Positions 14,287 to 59,783 of a DNA stretch of 64,000 bases are shown here, in pieces. The stretch is taken from assembly GCF_039555335.1 (NCBI RefSeq), contig NW_027305499.1, forward strand, positions 124,001-188,000. Reading direction: 5' to 3'. The first letter of the stretch is position 1, and each line of letters opens with the position of its first letter. This stretch comes from Amphiura filiformis (Eukaryota > Echinodermata > Ophiuroidea > Amphilepidida > Amphiuridae). The notes beneath the pieces are model-generated. The model was given only the letters and a program-made list of their open reading frames with translations, made no database searches and had not been told where the DNA came from. The translations under genes were made by a program, and so were the position numbers.

Positions 14287-15584
14287 TATATGGCCATGCG
14301 TTTTGAACTGAACACCCAAAAAGGGTGGTGGTGTCACACTTTTTGCCTCGATCGTTTTGTTTTTTGAGCATATCTTTGAAAGTACATGTAAAGAAGCTAT
14401 GGCAATAAATTTGGTACCAAATGAAAGCTAATATATTAATGATGAATTATGGAAAGTTACATGGAGGTATCTTGAACAGAAGCAGAATGGCATTCAATCC
14501 AATGACCCAAGTCAGGGGTGGTGGTGGCAGCGGCTCATGTGGCAGCGGCTCACCATGTACTAACTCAATGGGAAATTTCATTTTTTTTTTCTTGCAGTGC
14601 AAAAATGTTGAAATTTTCTTTAAAAACTAGTGTATATCAATAAATTTGGTATCAAAAGAAAGCTGACATTGTTATCTAAACTTTAATTCTGTAAAATAGT
14701 TGAAACAATAAACTGCCTTTAGCTAATGTTAAGGGCAAGTGCTTTGAACTCGACATCTAAAATGGGTGAGTGGTGTCACATTTTTCACTGGGGTCATTAG
14801 TTTTTTTAATGCATCATTGGAATAAAAAAAGATTTGATAGTAAATTTGGTATCAAATGACAGCTAAAACACCAATTATTAATTATGGAAAGGTGTCAATA
14901 AGATATCTATGGATATCTATATCTATATCTATGGCCAAGGCAGGGGTGGTGGAGCGGGGCACTCTCTGCACAAAACTGTAAGCGAAGTTGTCATTTTGGG
15001 AGCCTCGTAGTCGGTGTGCAAATGTGTTGCTATTTTTCTTTAAAATGAGTATTTATCAATAAATTTGGTATCAAAAGAAAGCTGACATTATATACACTTT
15101 TATTTTGTTATAAGTTAAAATAGTTAGCTGCTTTAGGGTATATGATAGGCCAATGTTCTCCAAGACAAGAAAAATTAATCCTATTTTGGTCACTTTTTGA
15201 AGGGTTGTATCATTTTACAAAAGTGATAATCCCCATACATTTATATATGGCAGGAAAGCCCTTACTCTGATCTATTAGAAAATGACATGAAATAAGATGC
15301 AGGGGTAACACAGAAATGTTAGTGACATTATACCCCTGTACCACTACTGTCAGTTGATGTTTTTTCTCATTCACATAAATGTAGCATTAGAACCTTACAT
15401 CTGACAGTGTTTCTGAGTATCTTGTTGGATTCCTTGTTCAATTTCCTTTCAGAAAATGTATACTTTTATCATGCTGGTGGGTATGGTTTGAAAAATATGG
15501 GCATTTGAAGGTGAAAGAGTGTCGCAAATTTCAAAAATCAGTGTGTGACGAAAAGTCGGCGAGGTGAAAACGCATGGCCATATA
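14287..15584. mobile_element. 1.3-kb TIR element with internal tandem repeats
   Basis: The left terminus tatatggccatgcgtttt is exactly inverted at the right terminus (aaaacgcatggccatata). Inside, a unit of roughly 420 bp is repeated: the landmark aaatttggta(t/c)caaa recurs at about 14406, 14643, 14841 and 15060, and gtggtgtcaca at about 14327 and 14771. TA dinucleotides end the repeats. A solitary copy of the terminus also lies at 52038-52060. No transposase was seen. Confidence 0.8.
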
Positions 15585-21682: not shown

Positions 21683-21936
21683 CTGGTGGGTGCTTACAAA
21701 ATTAACAAGTGAAATGTGCAGAACTTTGATTGTAAAATGTAAACATGCAGTTAGCTTATTCTCCTGCAAACATTTGTGTGCAAACAGAAAAAGTAAAAAC
21801 TAAAAAAGTTTTTGCTTTTCATTAATAGAGATTATAACTGCTTTTTTAATGAAATAAGGGGACAGTGTATGTGTAAATGATGCTTGATTATTCTTGAACA
21901 TGAAACTTGTTAGCAACACAAAACAAACAAACTTAC

Positions 21937-22155
21937 CGCTGCAGTAAATTTAAAGTCATGAGCAATCCAATCTCTGGCCTTATGATACTGGTCTTGCAAT
22001 CCCATTATAAATAGTGTATCGATGCCATCTACTATCGTTGCACCTAGTGACGTTCTACCAAATATACTAGCTGAATGACCCATGTGTGAGACTGGTTTCA
22101 GCTCATTGGCACCCCACGCATATTTCTCATAGCCACCCCATGCATGGAGCATCAT
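21937..22155 (-). CDS. MAN1A: Class I alpha-1,2-mannosidase (MAN1A type), coding exon 2
   Basis: This 219-nt exon encodes 73 residues beginning MMLHAWGGYEKYAWGANELK. It contains GATIVDGIDTLFIMG, the start of the GH47 catalytic (alpha/alpha)7 barrel of Golgi mannosidase I, which trims Man9 N-glycans. Splice sites are canonical on the minus strand: acceptor cag|atgatg at 22156/22155 and donor gcg|gtaagt at 21937/21936. Both borders fall between codons, as for the joining exon at 28693-29322. The next exon, expected to begin with a VFEVNIRF-like stretch, was not found between here and 6000, so intron 2 is long or the exon was missed. The exact paralogue (MAN1A1, MAN1A2, MAN1C1) cannot be decided from these residues. 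Confidence 0.94.
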
Positions 22156-22357
22156 CTGTGGACAGAACAAAACATGATTACATTCAGGGACATGAACAAT
22201 TAAAGCCATAATGTGTGATTTGCTTCACAGCGATGCCCTCAATTTTATTCGAATTTCTACTCTTTGCATAATTATAATGCCCAGTGGTATACTAAAATAC
22301 CACGTAAAAGACTAAGCCTGAAGTGCGTTAATAACAGCAAAATCTAACTTTTTGTAT

Positions 22358-22381: not shown

Positions 22382-22610
22382 TTCAGAGTTCAATGATCGA
22401 ATACATACTTGCTAACATGTACGGTACCGTGGATGTCAGCTTGTATCATACACACATCGAGCGCGATGCTCCGTGCAGTTACATGTAATACGATCAGCGA
22501 GCGTAGTACACGCATTGTAGGCGTTGGAATGAATCGCAATTTTCTTCGTTATACCTTATTTGCTTGGCTCAAAATTAAAAGGGGATAATGTGATCAGTGA
22601 AAACAAACAT

Positions 22611-22744
22611 TTAAATAAGAATCTATTCTTTATGCAAATAAATAATCCATTATTGCTTTATTGTAGGCTTGGGCGATTTAAATAAGAATCTATTCTTTAT
22701 GCAAATAAATAATCCATTATTGCTTTATTGTAGGCTTGGGCGAT
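22611..22744. repeat. Exact 67-bp tandem duplication
   Basis: Positions 22611-22677 and 22678-22744 appear identical, beginning ttaaataagaatctattctt. Identity of the two units indicates a very recent event or an assembly artefact. Confidence 0.92.
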
Positions 22745-23372
22745 TGTTATACAATAGATTTTGATTCATTTTTTAAAATATAATTGCTTATTTTCGATTT
22801 GATTCCGCTCACACCATACAAACTGTCTGCCAATGATCACATCATTCACAAGCCTTTTTGATCTGGCTAAATATTTCCCATGCACCATCAAGCATGACTT
22901 AATGAGGAGCTGTCAATTGGTACTGGTAGTGACATTTAATCCATGGTTTAAAATCAGCTCAATATTCACGAAATGTGAAATACAATGTAGGCCTATGTAC
23001 ATTTATGTTTGTTGTACAGTCTAACTCAGAGTCTCAGGCAGGAACACAAAAAGATCTAGGTCTGTTTCTGTAATGCTTATTCTGTAAGATTTATTTCGAC
23101 ACATGTACATGTGTCCTCAAAGCGTTTAAAACGGAACCCCTAGCAGAGGGTGGACACACTGTGTCATCCAAATAATATTAAGGAATTAATTGCAGATCAT
23201 GTAATAAATCTTTTTTTAAATTATAATTATAATTGGATGACACCCAGTGCACACAGCCTGGTAACTCTAAATATCATAATTTGGAAAAATTATTTATATA
23301 CTGGTTGAATGGGGAATTAGGTTTGGCTGACAATATAGGTTATCCATGATAATTGATATTCTATAAGCTGCA

Positions 23373-34616: not shown

Positions 34617-35483
<867 letters not shown>

Positions 35484-36544: not shown

Positions 36545-37340
36545 GGATGTCTTGAATACGCTGGCGAAGTTGTGTAATAATCGGACTAATGCTATAACAG
36601 TAGGTGAATACAAGTATTGAATATAGGCCTATCGCGTTGCAAAGCCCAATTCAGTGATCCCAGCGAAAGTGAAAAAAAAATCAAATTGTTACTTTTATAA
36701 AATATTTTAATGAAAAAATTGGCAAAAACCCAAGAAAACGGCAGTATCGACGAAGTTGAAGCCCCATTCAAATAGGCCTACATGTAGCTAATTTATATAT
36801 TGTCTGTAATTACAGATTCACGTAAATGCATTATTTTTGTCTTAAATAGGCCTACACGGCTTTTGGCTGAACCACTAGCAGAAGACACCAAATTGATGTT
36901 TTATGACCTTTGACATTCTTTTGTGGCGAGTGACATGGTCAGTTCAATTCACGCCGCGTGTCCTTGACAGGTTTGACTCTGCTTCAGTGGTCATGAAAGA
37001 ATTCAAAAGATAACCTCTGCCCCAATAATCCCAAGCAATTGTCTGAAACTGCTTTTCGGATGATGTATCATAAGAACTCAGTCGTCAAATGATGATAGTC
37101 ATATAATAACCAAAAGATTATTACTGACTACTATATCATTGAAGACTGAGTTCCGCAGGACAAAATCTGAATTTTGATGATTTTTACGATCGTCCGGATG
37201 AAAAAATCACTGAATGGGCCGTTAGTTCCCTCCTCTCCTTACCTTGGCAATATGAATCAAAGAAAAATAAAGAAAAAAATAAATAAAACAAGAAAAAAAA
37301 AAGACAAAGAAAAGAAACAATAAAAGAAAAACAAATATGA
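36545..37340. repeat. Left inverted arm of the 6.4-kb element
   Basis: The segment from gtcttgaatacgctggcg through gtgatcccagcgaaagtgaa, aattcaaaagataacctctg and attttgatgatttttacgat appears in reverse complement at 40300-41360. Apart from the MITE inserted in the right arm, the order is collinear. A third shortened relative is at 13185-13425. Confidence 0.85.
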
Positions 37341-40297: not shown

Positions 40298-40299
40298 TT

Positions 40300-41360
40300 T
40301 GGTTAATTTTCTTTGTCTTTTTTTTCTTTTCTTGTTTTATTTATTTTTCTTTGATTTATATTGCCAGGGTAAGGAGAGGAGGGAACTAAAGGAATATTCA
40401 GTGATTTTTTTGATTTTTTTTCATCCCGACGATCGTAAAAATCATCAAAATTCAGATTTTGGATACTAGACTGCGGAACTCGGTCTTCAATGATAGTCAG
40501 TAATTTTTATAGACCACTTGATATCACTGTTTATCAACAAAGGCGAGGGACTCGTCTATCGATATGCTCGAACGAGCCGCTACACTGTTCAATGGCTTTC
40601 CTGTACTATATGAAATGTGGCGGGCGATTTAAAATACACGTGCCCTTAGCAGACTACGATGCGTACGCACACTGCAAGGCAAAAAACAATGGACATTGCC
40701 ATAATGCGCGCGCATACTGCCGGGCAATGACGTCACATGCCAAGTGGTCTATACTATCATTTGAGGACTGAGTTCTTATGATCCGAGGAGCAGTTTCAGA
40801 CAATTGCTTGGGATTATTGGGGCAGAGGTTATCTTTTGAATTCTTTCATGACCACTGAAGCATAGTCAAACCTGTCAAGGACACTCGGCGTGAATTGAAA
40901 GACCATGTCACTCGCCACAAAAGAATGTCAAAGGTCATAAAACACCAATTTGGTCATTTGGTGTCTTCTGCTATCTAAAGGCCTTATATGGCTGATTTTG
41001 TACCTTTCGTCATTGTTATAGATGTGCTAACAAAGCTTGCTAGTGCAGTGGTTCAGCCGAAAGCCGTGTGTCTAAGGCAAAACATAATGCCGTGAGTCTG
41101 TAATTTATATACCGGTACTGACAGTATATAAATTAGCTACATGTATTTCAATGGGGCTTCAACTTCGTCAATACTGTCGTTTTCCTGTTTTGTTTTTTTT
41201 GCCATTTGTTTTTCATTAAAAAAAATTATAAACGTAAGCCTAACAATTTGATTTTTTTTTTCACTTTCGCTGGGATCACTGAATGGGACTTTGTAGCGCG
41301 GATTATTCAAAACTTGTTTTTACCTACTGCTATATAGTATTAATCCGATTATTACATAAC
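40300..41360. repeat. Right inverted arm of the 6.4-kb element
   Basis: Reverse complement of 36545-37340, longer because the MITE at 40508-40753 and an accggtactgac-containing segment are inserted. The arm begins with a T-rich run that mirrors the A-rich run at 37260-37340. Confidence 0.85.
40508..40753. mobile_element. TATAGACC MITE, copy 2 (246 bp)
   Basis: The ends TATAGACCACTTGATAT and ATGCCAAGTGGTCTATA are inverted. It is absent from the matching site in the left arm (about 37095-37130), so it entered after the arms were duplicated. Confidence 0.9.
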
Positions 41361-46206: not shown

Positions 46207-47400
46207 AGAACTACAAGCTACTATATGTACCCCCACCAGCGCCCCATCACCCCATCTGTGCTGACCCCCTACTCGTGAAGAGACTGTTAAGACAATTGCC
46301 ACCATGAAAACCAACAAAGCAGCAGCTTTAGATTATGCCATTATACAGTCGAAGCCCTTCAGGGATTTGGTGATCAAATGGTTGATGTCATTCATGCTTT
46401 CAGTTCAGAAATTTACACTACGCTATCTCCATCACGCCAATGGATCACCAATGTTATTATACCATTACCAAAGATTTTTGATGACCAACTATAGAGGCAT
46501 ATCACCCATGTCTATAGCTGCTAAAGTCTACAACAAGATCCTTTTAAACCGAATTCGGCCTCATGTAGACCCCTTGTTGAGAAGTAACCAGGCTGGTTTC
46601 ATATACTAAGAAGAATTATGGAAGGCTTTAAGGAATACCAGCACCCCTTGACAGTTACCTTCGTTGAATTCAAGAAGGCCTTTGATTCCATCAACAGAAC
46701 AGTAATGTTCTCAATATTGCGTCACTACGGCATTCCAAGCACTTTGGTCAATGCCATAAAGGTACTTTACAGTATCTCCAGTAGCGCAGTTATGGTTGAC
46801 GGAGGCATCTCTGAACCCTTCGATGTAACAACAGGAATCCTGCAAGGCGATGTATTGGCTCCCTTTCTCTTTACCATCCTTGTTGACTACCTTTTGGGAA
46901 AGGCGTCTGGACCAGACTCCGGAGTCGTGACCTATCCTCGTAGATCAAGAAGATATCTGGCCAAATTGCTAAATGACCTGGACTTTACTGACGACATCGC
47001 TCTCCTTGAGTCTTCCACCCCTCGGGCCCAGTCTCAGCTCTCCAGGACCCGCTAATGCCGCAGCTGACCTTGGACTTATAATCAGCGCACCCAAAACAGA
47101 GTATATGACCATCAACTGTCAACCACAGCCTCCTCTCCAAGTGTACGGAAACCCCATTAAGTATGTAACCCTCTACACACCCCCACCCCCACACCCCACA
47201 CCCCACACACCTACACCCCCGTACAGACAAAGGTATCGGTAATGACGTCAGTCAAGAGCTTCGGCTGGATAATAGGAAACCACGTGACCCAAACCAAAAG
47301 TAATCCTGAAACTCATAACTTGAAACGACCGAGAGTAGAGAAGCAGTTTGGATTAGAGCCGCCAAGGAGGAAATACCATGAACGGAGATAAAGGAAATGA
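46207..47400 (+). pseudogene. Non-LTR retrotransposon A, reverse transcriptase
   Basis: The plus-strand frames read TNYRGISPMSIAAKVYNKIL, NQAGF, then RRIMEGFKEYQHPLTVTFVE, FKKAFDSINRTVMFSILRHY, GILQGDVLAPFLF and LLNDLDFTDDIALLES. The order of RT motifs is complete, but the catalytic F-A-D-D is FTDD (46984-46995), and frameshifts occur at about 46610 and 47040. The reading ends in a CA/CCCCA-rich run at 47170-47222, after which GNDVSQELRL suggests the LINE C-terminus. The clade is not assigned; it has an APE-type endonuclease. Confidence 0.88.
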
Positions 47401-48913: not shown

Positions 48914-49860
48914 GTGTCTTAAGAGCCTTCCTAAAAACGGATGTTGATTGGTAAACGATTCCACATTCTGGGAGCATTATAGTAGAAGGCCCCGCGCTCA
49001 GCAGACTTCAGTAGTTTAGATGTATTGTGTTCTGTCAGTCGTGTGGTGTCAGATGCTGAGCGCAGTCCAGCTCTACCAGGTTGATTGGGAGTGATACAAG
49101 AGGAGATGTAATTAGGAGCCATATGATTCAGGCATTTGTAAACAAATAAAAAAAGTACTTTAAACAAAATTATTTTTTCCACAGGCAACCAATGCAGTTC
49201 TTCCAAACATGGAGTTGCATGATCTTGTTTACGGACTTGACATATCATCTTGGTTGAATACGCTGAATGTCAGTTTTGTTTGACCCTAGGAGCAGACCAT
49301 TACCATAGTCGATTTTAGACAAGATGATCGAGGGCACGGATGACAAGATGGCAAGTATCACGATCAAGATACCTACGAATCCTAGAAAGGTTTCGAAGAT
49401 GGTATGTCAAGCTACAGCAAAGGTTTGTATTGGCAGAAAATGACATGGACGAATATAATACCTAAATTGTGGACGTTATCAGATGGTTTGATTAACATAT
49501 CGCCAACACACAATGACACAGGACCCACAAAATGTTTCAGGTGGGACGGAGTGGCTACAAAGAACTCTGTCTTGCTGTCATTGAGCTTAAGCATATTCCT
49601 CCTCATGCATTTTCTGAGAGCATCAACACAGCAAGACAGGTTATTCAGAGCAGCCACAATAGAATAAGGGTCCTTGGGGTTATAATTTGTGTTCAATAAT
49701 ATTTGTATGTCATCTGCATACATGTGAAAATTCAAATCGAATGATCTAACTATACTATCAAGCTTTCAGAACATACAAAGTAAAGCCAAGTGGTCCTAAA
49801 ATAGACCCTTGAGGTAAACCAAACTCTAAAGTTTTTTACATCCGAACTAGGTGCTATTCT
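48914..49860 (-). pseudogene. CR1/jockey-like LINE fragment (RT to C-terminus)
   Basis: Minus-strand frames read GLPQGSILGPLGFTLYVL (about 49840-49765), then MYADDIQIL with the catalytic Y-A-D-D at about 49720-49709, and RRNMLKLNDSKTEFFV. After a gap comes HWLPVEKIILFKVLFLFVYK and RMWNRLPINIR at 49230-48935. The catalytic acid pair is present, but frames change, and the N-terminal half is missing. Confidence 0.85.
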
Positions 49861-50059
49861 TTTTTATCGCCATCATAGTGTCTCAAATGGCCCAAAATGA
49901 GGGGTTTTCAATATTGCCGTCCCCATTTACATGTAAAATAAAAAGGCCCATAAAAATTGAATAGTACTTAGTTCTGATGTAAAATTCACACAAAATGCTT
50001 TTTGAGTGATTACAAAGATAACTAGACTTAGCTGTGGTCTAAGACCACGAACACAGCCG
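49861..50059. other. Noncoding spacer before the repeat array
   Basis: AT-rich; no recognised feature. Confidence 0.35.
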
Positions 50060-50250
50060 TGTTGTGACCCCTTAATGACCTTTGACCCCAAAATCTACGA
50101 AAACCCCACAGGCATTACCTTATGTCAATGCATGTGTGCACATAGTATCACTCTGCCATGTTATTTGTGACAGAAGGACATTTTGAATGTTTTTTATCTT
50201 GGACCGGAAGTGATCCTTTAATGACCTTGGACTCCAAATAAAAAAATATC
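50060..50250. repeat. Isolated units of the 146-bp DR1 repeat
   Basis: The DR1-like tgacctttgaccc at 50076 recurs in diverged form (tgaccttggactc) at 50222, exactly 146 bases later, with accggaagtgatcc before it as in the main array. Confidence 0.7.
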
Positions 50251-52119
50251 ACATATGGCCATGTGTTATGAGTTGGGGGTCTCATAGGCTGGAGCCCGGA
50301 CATTTGCGCATAATTTTTTGCATATATGTTGAATTGTTTAATTACTGTAGATAACTGTAGGTAAATTATATACCAAATTAAAGCTCTTAGTGAGTGCTTC
50401 AAATTGGTACCTTAACTTTTAATATAGCATGTATACTTCAGAAGTTATCGCAGCTCAACGCAAAAAATGTCAGGGTGGAGTCGGCCCATGATATGCTGGC
50501 CCATGATATGCACTTTTATGTTAATGTTTGCTCCAGCTTATTTACATGTTGTTTCTGATTTGCTTTTTTGCCCCAAATTAGTCAAATTGCCTAAATATGA
50601 CAAGCCTGAATACTATTCAGTATCCTGAATGTGCAATCTTCAGAGTTTTAGGCTTTTAATTAAATTAATTAGCCAGGGTGGAGTCGGCGTACGATGTGCC
50701 TGCACGGAAAATGCCAGCTCAGGATATGCTCTTTTCCGGTGAAATTTGCGAAAACTTATCAGGATTGCATTTCTGATTTGATACACACTGTCATATTTAA
50801 ATATTTAACTTAAAAACATAACCTTCTTAATTCACATGCACTTTTTAAAAATCCTTTTTTTTTTTGGGGGGTCCAGGTATTTTACATGTTTAGTGGCGCA
50901 TCATGGTACGTTTTCAGAGGGTGCATCGACAAACAAATTCCTGGTGGACCCTGTGTTACTGTGATTACTGGGTATGATTATTGTGCAAACAAATGTCAAT
51001 TGTACACTATATTTAAGCCCAAAATTTGTGTTTACCAGGCAAATTTTCAATTTCACACTATGGGGGGGAAGTTTCTTTGAGAAGGGGTTGAGTTTTTTTT
51101 TTGGGGTGAAATTTTCTTTTGTGGGGGTTGAGTTAGCTAACAACTCATTTTGGGTGTAGGATGGCTCAACTCCCTAACCCCTTGATCTTCACAATTTCAA
51201 AGCACTACATGTATTTAAAGTTAACTTTGATGTTCATCAGTTGAGCATGCGTACTAGCACCGACTTAATCTCAGTTTTCGCGATTTTTTGTACCAGTACC
51301 TGTATCTTTCTAACATTTATAAAGTAATTTTGTACAAGAAACTTTCTCAGGAGGCAGTCATTCCAAAAGAAACTGTTTTGTATGTTGGGATTGACTTGCA
51401 AACATAGATCTGAAATTCTGCAAAGCAGCGAAACTTATTATTTTAAATCCTGACTGTGACTGTGATATCATACATGTGCAACTCTACTACATGTAACTTC
51501 AAACTTCATATTTTGGACAACAAATTTCAAAATACTGTGAATAACTAGTTGTACACTATGACTTGAATTTATATACATGATATGACATTCTTGTATTTTA
51601 GAAAAGTTAATTATTCTAGACAGAGCATGATTTGTTAATTTAACCAAATTTAACACCGTTTTTGAATAGAGCGTTTTAACCCTTGCGCAATTTTAGCACA
51701 GTAACAGGTAGCAAAGTAAAACTATATATTTTCTGAAAGCTTTTGATGTGGGGAATGCAAAAATGGAGTCTATTTGAATGTAGGGTAAGGCATTTTAAAA
51801 ATAGGACCACTTGATCTTTGGTAATTTAAAAAAAAAAATTCCCTCTAGAACTTCATATATATTTCTTACCACTGCCCCTACATCAGAAATAACTGCATTT
51901 TTGGATTCCTCATGAAATTTCCTTTCAGGATATGTACACTTTGCCTATAGTAGCGTGTACAGGTACTGAAATAATTAATTCTAAACAATAAATGGTGCGA
52001 TTTCCCAAAAATATGCAATGTCCGGCAAAAATCCCCCAACTCAAAACGCATGGCCATATACATTAGGTAAACATAATTCATGTGTGCACATACTGTCATT
52101 CTCCTATGTTTTTCTTAGC
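50251..52119. other. Gene-free stretch between array segments
   Basis: Noncoding DNA. The phrase cagggtggagtcggc occurs at 50471 and 50674 in a direct repeat with atga/gatatgc words. A solitary terminus of the 14287-15584 element (aaaacgcatggccatata) is at about 52044-52061. Confidence 0.4.
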
Positions 52120-53157
52120 TAATAAAATTTTTTGAAGGAATTTGGATTTATACCGGAAGTGACCACTTAATGACCTTTGACCTCAAATCTGTGTATGATT
52201 CATAGACACTGTGTAATAGCAATGCATGCGCGCAAGTTGCATCACCGTCCTACGTAATTTGTGGGAGAAGTAGCATTTTGAAGCTATTTCGTTTTATACC
52301 GGAAGTGACCCCTTAATGACCTTTGACCTCAAACAAAAAATACCACATATACATTAGGTAAACATAATTCATGTGTGCACATACCGTCACTCTCCTATGT
52401 TTTATACAGGAAGTGACCCCTTAATGACCTTTGACCTCAAACAAAAAAATACCACATATACATTAGGTAAACATAATTCATGTGTGCACATACCGTCACT
52501 CTCCTATGTTTTTCTTAGCTAATAAAATTTTTGAAGGAATTTGGATTTATACCGGAAGTGACCCCTTAATGACCTTTGACCTCAAATCTGTGTATGATTC
52601 ATAGACACTGTGTAATAGCAATGCATGTGCGCAAGTTGCATCACCGTCCTACGTAATTTGTGGGAGAAGTAGCATTTTGAAGCTATTTCGTTTTATACCG
52701 GAAGTGACCCCTTAATGACCTTTGACCCCAAACAAAAAAATATCACATATACATTGGATAGACACAATTCATGTGTGAATATACCGTCACTCTCCTATGT
52801 TTTTTTTTTTTTTTAAAATTTTTTGAAGGAATTTGGTTTTATACCGGAAGTGACCCCTTAATGACCTTTGACCTCAAATCTGTGTATGATTTATAGACAC
52901 TGGGTAATAACAATACATGTGTGCAAGTGGCGTTACTGTTCTACGAAATTTGTGGGAGAAGTAGCAAGTTAGTTGAAATCACGTTTTGGACCCCTGTGAC
53001 CCCTACTTGACCTTTGACCCCACAAATTTCATGTGACATGTAGGGGCATGGCCATTGATGATTGTGACCAAGTTAGGTCAAAATCGGTGTACGCATGTCA
53101 GTGCTAGAGCAAATGTAAAGGTCGACAGAAGAAAGAAGAAGAAGAAGAAGAAGAAGA
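52120..53157. repeat. 146-bp tandem array carrying DR1 nuclear-receptor-like sites
   Basis: The core TGACCTTTGACCT (or ...CCC) occurs at 52171, 52317, 52425, 52570, 52716, 52862 and 53008. Spacing is 145 or 146 bases except one shortened unit of 108. Each core is preceded by accggaagtgacc(c)cttaa. Alternate units share longer stretches (tgtgtatgattcatagacac against acattaggtaaacataattc), giving a dimeric higher-order unit of about 291 bp. The array ends in an (AAG)n run at 53128-53157. The core read on the minus strand is a direct repeat of AGGTCA with one spacer. Confidence 0.88.
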
Positions 53158-53437
53158 TCCTGTGTAATTAAATACTTTTCATTCGGGGGCTATGTGGAAT
53201 TTTTTTAATTGTATTGCTTGTACAATGACATCCTTTCACAATATAATGTCCATCTGAAACAAAGGTGTGCGTAGCAGTTTGAGGATCTTACAGAGTTCCA
53301 ATCAAAGAAAAACTATAAACTAATAACTAACAGCCTTATCGTTAAACAAGGTATCATCATAGTATCATAAACAATAAATTAGAAAAGTTATTAATAGTTC
53401 ATTATCAATTTACGGTATACGCTGTTTTTCAGCATTG

Positions 53438-54487
53438 TCAGCAAATCGCTGTCATTGTACCCTTGAATGCATTTCGATAGCGTTGATTTGTTGCCGCGTA
53501 AACGACTGGATTTATCGACGAATTGAGACCAATGACAAGATAAACAGCATTGATCCAGAATATGTCTTGGATATCAGTCCACGGAATGAAATTATATTCA
53601 CCGAGAGCATATAATGTTTTATAAGTGGTATACACAGAACAACATGTAAGATAAATGGCGCCATTTGCAATCACCATACTTGCTACCTGGCGAAGATTTT
53701 TATATAATTCGGCAGATGTTTGCAGTTCTCTGTTATGCATACGCTTTCTCAAAGTCACTAAAATGCTACCGTAAAGATACGAGTTACCGACTAATAAGAG
53801 AAGGAAGTAAACAGGATAGAAACCGTCTACTATTTTGCCAAATAGTGCAATTTCCTTTGCTTCTGGTGTATTTACATGCTCAATAGGGTAGGTAATGTAA
53901 CGATTGTCATCTGGTCATATAAAACAACTCGCGCTTATCTTTGTATCGCGTATAATATACGCTGTACATCCAAAAAAGAGGCTCACGAAAAATACAACAC
54001 ATGTAAGTTTAATCGTGCGTTTCTTTCCTTTCAGAATGTAATGTTTGATCGGACAACATATTGCCAGATACCTCTCAAAAGAAGAGAGTGTAACCAGAAG
54101 AGTTGACCAAATGAAACAGGTTATGTATATAGCAGGGATGATTGAACGCAGAACGACTATTCTACCGGATGCTAAACCAATAAAGTCTCGTAAGCGGCTG
54201 GTATTATAGGCTACGATACGAGATCCACCTACGAACATCACTGTTATCAAATCTGTACAAGCTAGACTCACTAAGTATATAAAGGTAGGAATATGTAGAG
54301 ATGGTACTCGGATCACAGTCCAGATAAAAGTTGTGTTACTTACGAATCCAAACACTATTATGAACGGCCAGATAATCAGGTACAATAACCATTCATTTGG
54401 CATATAGACAAATGAGTATAACCGTGATGAGTTTCGAAGATCAATAGTATTGTCCGGTGTGCATGTTGTATTCATATTTGTATACAT
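53438..54487 (-). pseudogene. Class A GPCR, intronless, broken by one in-frame TGA
   Basis: On the minus strand a frame opens at ATG 54487 (a second ATG at 54475 aligns with the starts of the other two cluster genes) and runs to 53438. It is broken only by a TGA at 53917-53915. The stop replaces the conserved Trp of CFLW in extracellular loop 2 (TGG to TGA); everything after it is in frame and conserved, with no indel. Visible class A landmarks are GFVSN (TM1), LACTDL (TM2), SFERYLAICCP (TM3, E-R-Y for DRY) and NSSINPVVYA (TM7). N-terminal NTT and NSS are N-glycosylation sites. It is more diverged than the two plus-strand copies. It could be a pseudogene, a segregating null allele or a sequencing error. 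Confidence 0.9.
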
Positions 54488-55582: not shown

Positions 55583-56632
55583 ATGAATACTACATGCGAA
55601 CCGGATTATACTATTAATCTTCGAAACTCATCTCATTTGTACAGTTTTATCTTTATGCCAAACGAATGGTTTTTGCACCAGATTATATGGCCGTTAATGC
55701 TGGTGTTTGGATTCGTAAGTAACATAACTTTCATCTGGACTGTGATCAAGGTTCGATCTCTTCATACGTCTACTTTCATATATTTTGTCAGTTTAGCGTG
55801 TGCAGATTTAATAACATTGATTGGAGTAAGTAGTTATAACATTTTTAGCTACCAAAGTAGCCATTTCAGACACTTCAAAGGCTTGCCAATTACTGAAGTC
55901 ATTATTGTCCTTTCTATATTCCCTGCTATATACAACTCATGTTTCATAGCATCAACTCTTTTGGTGACACTCTCTTCGTTTGAAAGATTTTTGGCAATAT
56001 GTTACCCAATTAAACATCATATTATTAAAGGAACCAAGAGAACACTTCGGTTAACTTGTTTCGTTGTTCCATTGAGTGTTATTTTAGGAACTGCTGCTAG
56101 CAATATTCGAGGGTACAAGCAGAGAGCAACTTACTGCTTTCTTTGGCCGGACGGCTCTCATTTCAGTACCTATCCTACGACAGTAATGCTGCCGGAATTG
56201 CAGATTAATCCATCGCTTTATGAAAAAATTGTAGATCCAATCTATCCTATTTATTTCCTTATTTTAGCCGTAGTAAATTTGTATTTCTATGTAAGAATCT
56301 TGGTAACATTAAGCAAGCGAAGACATAATACTAACTTACAAACATCAGCGGAATTAGAGAACAATCTGCGGCAAGTCGTGAACATGGTAATCGCAAATGG
56401 CACTGTCTATCTTACATGTTGTTCCATTATGGTAGCATACCGACTAGCGACAATCTTACTTGCAAATGATATTATTTTGCTGGATGCGGAATATGTAATA
56501 AAGTGGTCTTTTGTTGTATACCTTGTCATTGGGTTCAATTCGTCGATTAATCCTGTAATTTACGCTGTCACACATCAACGCTACAGAAATGCTTTGAAGG
56601 CCACAATGGTATCTTGCCGTGCACCAAAGTAA
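55583..56632 (+). CDS. Class A (rhodopsin-like) GPCR, intronless, copy 1
   Basis: A 349-residue seven-helix receptor. The ATG at 55583 is chosen because MNTTCEPDYT aligns across all three copies; upstream in-frame codons lack a conserved ATG. Landmarks are N2 and N15 glycosylation sites, TM1 N47 (GFVSN), TM2 D75 (LACADL), TM3 E134-R135-F136 and TM7 N323-P324-x2-Y327 (NSSINPVIYA). Unusual points: no Cys at the position 25 residues before R135, where the class A disulphide Cys normally sits, although extracellular loop 2 keeps C185; and TM6 lacks the CWxP motif (YLTCCSIMV). It may be a neuropeptide or chemosensory-type orphan receptor; the ligand is unknown. It ends at TAA 12 codons before the end of its paralogue. 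Confidence 0.93.
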   Translation: MNTTCEPDYTINLRNSSHLYSFIFMPNEWFLHQIIWPLMLVFGFVSNITFIWTVIKVRSLHTSTFIYFVSLACADLITLIGVSSYNIFSYQSSHFRHFKGLPITEVIIVLSIFPAIYNSCFIASTLLVTLSSFERFLAICYPIKHHIIKGTKRTLRLTCFVVPLSVILGTAASNIRGYKQRATYCFLWPDGSHFSTYPTTVMLPELQINPSLYEKIVDPIYPIYFLILAVVNLYFYVRILVTLSKRRHNTNLQTSAELENNLRQVVNMVIANGTVYLTCCSIMVAYRLATILLANDIILLDAEYVIKWSFVVYLVIGFNSSINPVIYAVTHQRYRNALKATMVSCRAPK

Positions 56633-58089: not shown

Positions 58090-58697
58090 GTTTAAATGTT
58101 TACTCAGTTATGTACGATTTAACTAGAATCACGTTTTCTCATAACTTTTTTCAATGGCACACGCGCCAAATACCTGATAAAAAATCTAACGGATATTTTA
58201 AAAATGTTTGCTTAGTTATATATGCTTTAACAAGAGTCACGTTCTTTTATCATAACTTTTACTTCAATACCACACGCGCCAGATACTTGAATGTTATTTA
58301 ACACCAACCAACCAACATAATATCCGCTGTTGTTGGTTACTTACAAATTGTATTTTATTGTATTTTGAATGATATAATACGTAAGTGTTCACAATGTATC
58401 CGAAACCCTGACAAGTGCCAAACTACACGTGTATGTCATTTTGCAGGTGACACGTGACACAGACTATTGAAGATTTTGACAGCAGGTACGTTCTAAAATT
58501 CATGATATTTTACCAATGCTATGGCACTTGGAGTAACGAAGCTGGTACCATTGTTTGTTTGTAACAGACTTAGTGATAAAATCCATACTACTGGAAAGGC
58601 ATATTCCCATTCATTCTCAATAATTTCTTACATCGTTTTGGACAAAACTTGATACAGTCTTATTTTGTTGTCACTGGGTCACCAATATAATAATAAC
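58090..58697 (+). promoter_or_regulatory. 5' flank of GPCR copy 2, partly triplicated
   Basis: The phrase atgttt(g)(c/a)ct(c/t)agtta(t)gta, then gatttaac(a/t)aga-tcacgtt, occurs at about 58091-58140 and again at about 58203-58250, both homologous to 55095-55135. The remainder to the ATG is collinear with the flank of copy 1. Confidence 0.7.
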
Positions 58698-59783
58698 ATG
58701 AATACAACATGCGAACCGGATTACACTATTGATCTTCGCAACTCATCTCAAATATACAACTTTGTCTCTATGCCAAACGAATGGATGCTGCACCAGATTG
58801 TATGGCCGTTACTGCTAGTGTTTGGATTCGTAAGTAACATAACTTTCATCTTGACTGTGATCAAGGTACGATCTCTTCATACTTCTACATTCATATATTT
58901 TGTCAGTTTAGCGTGTGCAGACTTAATAACATTAATCGGACTAAGTGGTTATAACATTTGTGACTACCAAATAAGCCATTTCAGACACTTCACAGGCTTA
59001 CCAATTGCTCAAGTCATTGCAGCCCGTTCTATAGTCCCTGCTATATTCGTAACCTGCTTTATAGGATCAACTCTTTTGGTGACACTTGCTTCCTTTGAAA
59101 GATTTTTGGCAATTTGTTACCCACTTAAACACCATGTTATTAAGGGAAACAAGCGAGCATATCGACTAACTTCTGTTATAGTTTTATTGAGTATCAGTTT
59201 AGGAACTGTAACATACAATATACCAGATTTTAAACAAACATCAACTTACTGTTTTCTTTGGCCAGAAGGCACTCATTTCAGTACCTATCCTACGTCACTA
59301 CTTCTTCTGGAATTGAAGATCAATCCATCGCTTTATGACAAAATTGTAGATCCAATCTATCCTACTTATGTCCTTATTTTAGCCGTAGTAAATTTGTATC
59401 TTTATGTAAGAATCTTGGTAACATTAAATAAGCGAAGACATAATACTAAATTACAAACATCAGCGGCATTAGAGAACAATCTGCGACAAGTTGTGAACAT
59501 GGTTATCGCAAATGGCACTGCATATCTTGCATGTTGTTCCATTTTAGTAGTATACCGAGTAGCAATAGTCTTACTTGCATATGATGTTATTTTGCTTGAT
59601 GCCAAATATGAAATAACGTGGTCTATTGTCGGTTTTCTTGCCATTGGCTTCAATTCCTCTATTAACCCAGTAATTTACGCTGCCACACATCAGCGCTATA
59701 GAAATGCTTTGAAGGCCACGATGGCATCTTGCTGTGCTCCAATGCATAGATGGAAGAGTAATACTGACACGGATCATATTTAG
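58698..59783 (+). CDS. Class A (rhodopsin-like) GPCR, intronless, copy 2
   Basis: A 361-residue receptor collinear with copy 1 without indels through residue 348. The ATG at 58698 begins MNTTCEPDYTIDLRNSS. It retains GFVSN (TM1), LACADL (TM2), SFERFLAICYP (TM3), a CFLWPEG loop-2 motif and NSSINPVIYA (TM7), followed by helix 8 (HQRYRNALK). It shares the lack of a TM3 disulphide Cys and of CWxP in TM6. The C-terminus adds HRWKSNTDTDHI compared with copy 1, where CAT is replaced by a TAA stop. The gene lies 2.1 kb from copy 1 in the same orientation. Ligand and expression are unknown. Confidence 0.94.
   Translation: MNTTCEPDYTIDLRNSSQIYNFVSMPNEWMLHQIVWPLLLVFGFVSNITFILTVIKVRSLHTSTFIYFVSLACADLITLIGLSGYNICDYQISHFRHFTGLPIAQVIAARSIVPAIFVTCFIGSTLLVTLASFERFLAICYPLKHHVIKGNKRAYRLTSVIVLLSISLGTVTYNIPDFKQTSTYCFLWPEGTHFSTYPTSLLLLELKINPSLYDKIVDPIYPTYVLILAVVNLYLYVRILVTLNKRRHNTKLQTSAALENNLRQVVNMVIANGTAYLACCSILVVYRVAIVLLAYDVILLDAKYEITWSIVGFLAIGFNSSINPVIYAATHQRYRNALKATMASCCAPMHRWKSNTDTDHI

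Follow-up and report, generated by a model that had tools for sequence, protein, structure and literature searches.

The array of tandemly repeated nuclear-receptor-type motifs analysed here is best read as an example of a known architecture, that of a Helitron with satellite-like central repeats. With a probability of roughly two in three, its units are the central repeats of a rolling-circle element that is Helitron-like and non-autonomous and lies on the minus strand at 50,022-53,157 of the window (the whole 64,000-nt stretch of DNA that was analysed), with its 5′ end at 53,157 and its 3′ end at 50,022. This putative element would span 3,136 bp, or 1,333 bp minus a later insertion, and its proposed membership of the Helitron family is deduced from the structure of one copy. 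The array, the insertion that splits it, the structures at its edges and the conservation of a 42-bp block among its units were directly observed.

A dimeric array split by a DNA transposon

A pattern scan of the window retrieved eight exact copies of TGACCTTTGACCY, starting at 50,076, 52,171, 52,317, 52,425, 52,570, 52,716, 52,862 and 53,008. The last seven, within 52,171-53,020, form the main array with spacings of 146, 108, 145, 146, 146 and 146 bp, so that the seven exact copies, the 145-146 bp spacing and the one shortened unit described in the sequence-only reading are all real. With up to two mismatches, the window contains 13 matches, whereas 100 shuffles gave an expectation of 2.63 and no more than 9 in any of them, although the copy number alone is uninformative on selection because the copies are all members of one array. 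Tandem Repeats Finder detected periods of 109, 146 and 292 at the main array. The occurrence of the period of 292 beside that of 146 indicates that the dimeric higher-order repeat suggested earlier truly exists, with alternating units of an A type (U2, U4, U5 and U7) and a B type (U3, U6 and U8), the only departure from alternation being the passage from U4 to U5.

Nine units were counted in the plus-strand orientation, namely U1 to U8 and a core copy, U9. U1 (50,047-50,192, DR1 at 50,076) adjoins the right end of the element and carries an intact core of three half-sites, with neither CCGGAAGT nor TTTTATA. U2, an A-type unit split by a transposon, consists of a left part (50,193-50,255), in which the DR1 at 50,222 has decayed to TGACCTTGGACTC with two mismatches, and a right part (52,059-52,141). 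It is followed by the B-type U3 (52,142-52,287, DR1 at 52,171) and by the A-type U4 (52,288-52,395), which is shortened to 108 bp and precedes another A unit, U5 (52,396-52,540, DR1 at 52,425). The shortness of U4 and this A-A order look as if about 37 bp and one whole B unit had been lost. The alternation then resumes with U6 (B type, 52,541-52,686, DR1 at 52,570), U7 (A type, 52,687-52,832, DR1 at 52,716) and U8 (B type, 52,833-52,978, DR1 at 52,862). The core copy U9 (52,982-53,024, DR1 at 53,008) adjoins the left module of the element and has three half-sites without CCGGAAGT. It is not a full unit: U1, U5, U6, U7 and U8 are mutually alike (z of at least 5.6 in 10 comparisons, U2, U3 and U4 being left out), whereas the similarity of U9 to these five units stops downstream of the core, beyond which none was detected (z from -0.3 to 0.6 in five comparisons). 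As the core of U9 is flanked by dissimilar sequence, the core is also present beside the left end module. With 10.5 bp per turn, the spacing amounts to 13.9 helical turns for the full-length units and 10.3 for the short one, which places most cores on nearly one face of the helix; this is only a curiosity so far.

The array extends beyond the seven clustered copies. A pair of motifs about 2 kb away had been noticed previously, and its spacing of 146 and the exact copy at 50,076 stand, but the copy at 50,222 has two mismatches. An interpretation of this pair as an independent array is rejected, since a TA-flanked DNA transposon of 1,801 bp (50,256-52,056), overlooked in the sequence-only reading together with the Helitron-like ends, is inserted inside U2 and cuts the pair off from the main array. 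Its inverted ends of 24 bp read TGGCCATG[TC]GTT[AT]TGAGTTGGGGG. They were recovered as an inverted match between 50,253-50,279 and 52,033-52,059 by BLAST of 51,901-53,320 against the window, and an inverted-repeat search gave arms of 27 nt, flank included, that are 93% complementary. The left arm interrupts the A unit after CACATA and the unit resumes past the right arm with TACATT; when the flanks are joined and one TA is dropped, U2 measures exactly 146 bp, which identifies the 50,076/50,222 pair as the detached far end of the same array.

The two parts of U2 differ in their resemblance to the other A units. Compared with an A consensus that was built for the U2 comparison and the Fisher test from U4, U5 and U7 only, and that is unreliable at positions lacking in U4 at which U5 differs from U7, the left part is identical at 50/62 positions and the right part at 76/78 (Fisher p 0.0013). 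Unit by unit, the identities of the left part are 49/61 with U4, 49/62 with U5 and 52/62 with U7, and those of the right part 45/47 with U4, 81/83 with U5 and only 70/84 with U7, against which the contrast is absent. We read this pattern as the right part having stayed homogenised with U4 and U5 while the detached left part drifted.

A second, diverged and TA-flanked member of the transposon family occurs at 14,291-15,580, with ends starting with the same TGGCCATGCGTTTT; the two copies share the ends TGGCCATG[CT]GTT[TA]T as well as 45 bp of internal sequence at 82%. Other traces of mobile DNA in the window are a reverse-transcriptase fragment (PF00078) at 46,618-47,055 and minus-strand reading frames at 48,931-49,735 that resemble retroelement remnants by eye; the one frame of these that was scanned (48,931-49,248) gave no Pfam match.

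A composite block shared by the units

A DR1 site consists of two RGGTCA half-sites spaced by 1, and the exact TGACCTTTGACCY found in eight of the nine units conforms to this definition. The match to DR1 pointed out in the sequence-only reading is genuine, but the strict form AGGTCA-A-AGGTCA is present in only five of the seven copies of the main array, those at 52,716 and 53,008 being GGGTCA-A-AGGTCA. The DR1 is only a part of a 42-bp block, which also comprises a third half-site at DR5 spacing and CCGGAAGT. In the sense of the element, the internal units read AGGTCA (or GGGTCA)-A-AGGTCA-TTAAG-GGGTCA, then CTTCCGG, then TATAAAA or TATAAAT; we take the half-site words to be of nuclear-receptor type and CCGGAAGT to be ETS-like. 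The pattern TGACC-N6-TGACC-N3-GACC, with up to two mismatches, has 11 matches, nine of them in units of the array, against 0.12 expected. All three half-sites are complete in 8/9 units, including U1 and U9, and in the latter they are kept though the spacer is CTACT instead of CTTAA. Over both strands of the window, CCGGAAGT is confined to six of the nine units, while TTTTATA is common, occurring at 23 plus-strand places and its complement at 22.

Between the A and B consensus sequences, 41/42 positions are identical in the block and 58/104 outside it (Fisher p 1.1e-7, the limits of the block having been chosen after the alignment was seen). Judged from these sequences, the DR1 motif reflects more than the chance conservation within a satellite that had been offered as an alternative. 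Whether the core is better conserved than the rest of the unit, a question raised with the first interpretation, depends on the level of comparison. It is so between unit lineages: with an A consensus derived for the window ranking from U2 (rejoined), U4, U5 and U7, the mean pairwise identity among four lineages (A consensus, B consensus, U1 and U9) is 0.949 for the DR1, 0.667 for the rest of the block and 0.474 outside it. The DR1 window ranks 4th of 119, and each of the top six windows overlaps or equals it. Across all nine units it ranks 7th of 119 (0.923, outside 0.590), and 15th of 119 for A, B and U1 only. Conversely, it is not so inside the A class, where the DR1 comes 87th of 108 windows (0.872, outside 0.895), and inside the B class its identity of 1.000 is tied with at least 13 other windows. 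The detached half of U2 gives no advantage to the core either (10/13 for the DR1, 40/49 for the remainder, both small numbers), and on the same cut-off side the core of U1 is intact. The DR1 is the most widely shared part of the block. The constraint is real for the time at which A, B and U1 diverged; nothing in these comparisons suggests continuing constraint.

The nature of this constraint could be independent of any receptor. At somewhat less than even odds, the block is a recombination or transposition signal acting in the manner of a CENP-B box, its likeness to receptor sites being incidental. This proposal draws on an analogy with the CENP-B-box-like motifs of satellites, proposed as such signals in the discussion of PMC7492417, of which an excerpt was available, and on the presence of the core in all units, including those next to the two end modules (U1 and U9), where exchange or transposition would act. 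Some monomer clusters of oyster in the same paper likewise have short conserved segments in an otherwise dissimilar remainder. The absence of CCGGAAGT and TTTTATA from U1 and U9 argues against this proposal.

Helitron-like edges

On the minus strand, the 5′ edge of the element (53,132-53,157) is a (TTC)n microsatellite that opens with TC TTCTTCTTC right after an A and that Tandem Repeats Finder delimits at 53,127-53,157 with a period of 3. The junction at 53,157 reads GGA|TCTTCTTC, a TC preceded by A as in Helitrons; this sign is weak alone because the (TTC)n tract offers many TC, and the tract could be an ordinary microsatellite in which a TC is easily found. A left flanking module (53,025-53,131, minus strand) extends from the microsatellite to the first core and is dissimilar to the compared units (z from -0.3 to 0.6 for 53,025-53,127). 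The 3′ edge (50,022-50,048, minus strand) consists of the hairpin GTGGTC-TTA-GACCAC (50,034-50,048), 8 nt, CTAG and then T at 50,021, that is GTGGTCTTAGACCAC-8 nt-CTAG|T at 50,022, with a palindrome slightly short at 15 nt. A scan of both strands for such ends (6-bp stem with at least 4 G/C, loop of 2-6, gap of 6-10 nt, CTRR then T), with limits fixed after the site had been noticed, retrieved the edge of the array as the only site in the window, against a mean of 0.05 and at most 1 in 20 shuffles; a looser scan gave four sites. Folded as DNA, 50,026-50,075 forms two hairpins at -7.9 kcal/mol (z -2.15, 5/200 shuffles equally good).

Canonical Helitrons, as described in the available part of PMC4067079, start with 5′ TC, end with 3′ CTRR behind a 16-20-nt palindrome located about 11 bp from the 3′ end, and insert between A and T with no target-site duplication. 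The present element resembles them in its 5′ TC, its 3′ hairpin followed by CTAG and its A/T junctions, and resembles the non-autonomous ones of the same source in having no ORF of at least 90 aa inside it, and so no helicase of its own. No duplication adjoins the assigned ends, but the short direct match described below lies near them. It departs from the canonical description by its palindrome of 15 nt instead of 16-20, by (TTC)n directly at the 5′ end and by its occurrence as one copy. A BLAST search with 51,901-53,320 returned no second copy within the window. Likewise, no relatives were found in viral contigs (four patterns) or genome contigs (one pattern) of viral or prokaryotic collections, nor among phage records by blastn with 52,540-53,160, an absence that means little given the viral or prokaryotic nature of these collections.

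The general layout also resembles that of another group of Helitron-like elements. In the oyster elements covered by the accessible part of PMC7492417, short satellite-like arrays lie between two modules, with a microsatellite on the left and a palindrome on the right, and the central repeats of the 13 clusters average 140-180 bp; the 146-bp unit and the arrangement of the modules match these Helentron-carried repeats. Central tandem repeats between two flanking modules are indeed present here, and with its satellite-like central array, left microsatellite and right palindrome the element is similar to HINE/Cg_HINE of oyster, DINE-1 and Pearl as they appear in the portions available of PMC7492417 and PMC4067079. 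In contrast to these, subterminal inverted repeats of about 11-15 bp could not be convincingly identified in it, the best candidate being 9 bp with one mismatch, equalled in 52/100 shuffles that preserve base composition only, and its hairpin lies in Helitron style 12 nt inside an end with CTAG. Membership of the HINE/Helentron group was rejected for want of these repeats.

The same edges, taken in the opposite direction, might belong to a plus-strand SINE-like retroelement, with tandem repeats at its 5′ end and (GAA)n as its tail, which we consider unlikely. The (GAA)n tract at the downstream edge resembles a simple-repeat tail, and a direct match of 10 bp, with a single mismatch, near both edges (equalled in 5/100 shuffles, which again preserve base composition only) is the main support for an element that makes duplications, but this match does not adjoin the tail. 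Moreover, the hairpin-CTAG edge would be left unexplained, the window was negative for tRNA genes with ARAGORN, and an Rfam search of 49,000-54,000 gave one match only, sub-threshold, to a microRNA family and outside the element. A SINE was therefore set aside.

Other repeats were encountered in the window. An inverted pair at 36,904-37,313 and 40,298-40,937, whose arms measure 122 nt (96%) and 113 nt (81%) and are 3.7 and 3.0 kb apart, perhaps delimits a further foldback or inverted-repeat element; each of its sides adjoins a DR1-like word with one mismatch, TGACCTTTGACAT. A perfect (ATT)48 microsatellite is located at 35,340-35,483, and an exact tandem duplication of a 67-bp unit at 22,609-22,745, some 400 bp away from a glycosyl hydrolase family 47 ORF (21,910-22,209).

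Proposed origin, predicted receptor binding and possible regulatory role

We infer both the mobility mechanism and any protein binding from the features above. The Helitron-like element would be mobilised in trans by a replication initiator/helicase from an autonomous relative. Unequal exchange would have built the A/B higher-order repeat and afterwards shortened the array, and the TA-flanked DNA transposon would then have split one unit, leaving U1 and one half of U2 isolated. During the A/B drift, the 42-bp block was most likely retained either by protein binding that serves the spread or the transcription of the element, or through promotion of exchange between units. Host nuclear receptors would probably bind the block in vitro, since it holds a consensus DR1, a third half-site at DR5 spacing and the ETS-like CCGGAAGT; any use of the DR1 by the host would be a separate claim.

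Such use would take the form of a host regulatory platform, on which RXR/HNF4-type receptors and an ETS factor, bound to the DR1/DR5 cores, regulate nearby genes such as the adjacent GPCRs. The consensus DR1 in an unusually conserved block, its perfect AGGTCA-A-AGGTCA form in 5/9 units and the core of U1, which is detached from the main array by the insertion but intact, are favourable to this proposal, which also has precedents carried by transposable elements, namely HNF4 on Alu (PMC3252374) and heat-shock elements in Caenorhabditis Helitrons (PMC6927752), as far as the consulted parts of these sources go. We nevertheless regard it as rather improbable: the DR1 in the detached half of U2 has decayed like its surroundings, on the small numbers given above, and the nearest GPCR gene (53,438-54,487, minus strand), whose end is some 280 bp away from the element, is interrupted, with ORFs of 190 and 106 aa of which the shorter has no Pfam match, and has the appearance of a pseudogene. 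Furthermore, according to the available part of PMC6927752, the enrichment of heat-shock elements in Helitrons is not universal. The interrupted gene belongs to a cluster of related rhodopsin-type GPCRs at 53,438-54,487 (-), 55,583-56,632 (+) and 58,695-59,783 (+). A rhodopsin-type match was obtained with Pfam for three of the four GPCR-like pieces scanned among the neighbouring ORFs, and a protein search with one neighbouring GPCR gave 26 matches, the only named one shown being from Amphiura filiformis at 31% identity.

The period of the array had been seen as that of nucleosomal DNA and as a possible basis of a phased receptor-binding platform, a suggestion that finds no support. A length of 146 bp is that of the nucleosome core particle without linker, and one nucleosome per unit would leave zero linker between phased nucleosomes; a unit of this size is, moreover, common among the central repeats of Helitron-like elements, as in the oyster clusters above. 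Least probable among the alternatives is a plain satellite fragment whose motif was retained by homogenisation or chance alone, since, even if the DR1 within the A class is no better conserved than the remainder, A and B are nearly identical in the block but not elsewhere, and a further core adjoins the left module, which is otherwise unlike the units.

Alu, a retroelement, is not known to contain a comparable tandem array, whereas nine cores stand in tandem here, eight of them with all three half-sites. The putative Helitron nevertheless shares with Alu the property of a transposable element spreading nuclear-receptor consensus sites, according to the parts available of two studies on the binding of Alu repeats by HNF4 (PMC3252374) and on Alu repeats with DR2 sites (PMC1785376). 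It is also comparable to the Caenorhabditis Helitrons of PMC6927752, rolling-circle elements with many copies of a host transcription-factor consensus, whose heat-shock elements, in the text available, gain HSF-1 occupancy on heat shock with a response of nearby genes; there, occupancy and induction were measured, whereas the present motif is of nuclear-receptor type and known from its sequence. In the titles and beginnings of abstracts retrieved from the open-licence literature, nothing links Helitrons or satellite DNA to DR1 receptor sites, and the motif string is absent from the 15 papers in which it was sought. One review (PMC9301316) contains both "helitron" and "nuclear receptor", and PMC10995137, which deals with the origin of a complex nuclear receptor element, may bear on the subject.

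This analysis recasts a motif array as a mobile element with testable ends, and leads to the hypothesis of a rolling-circle transposon carrying a conserved composite nuclear-receptor/ETS block. If copies of the element in the genome do not retain the block, it would be an ordinary Helitron with satellite-like repeats. Conversely, if they retain it while the remainder drifts, a possible role of such elements in connecting genes to receptor networks would become a question to ask. The most far-reaching version, a long shot at present, is that of a Helitron family of an animal, perhaps a marine invertebrate, spreading ready-made tandem receptor modules. Most 146-bp units would provide three AGGTCA-like half-sites (DR1 plus DR5) together with an ETS site and a TATA-like word, uniformly oriented within the element. 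If true, genes near any insertion would come under the control of retinoid or lipid receptors, in parallel to the heat-shock Helitrons acting for HSF-1 in Caenorhabditis.
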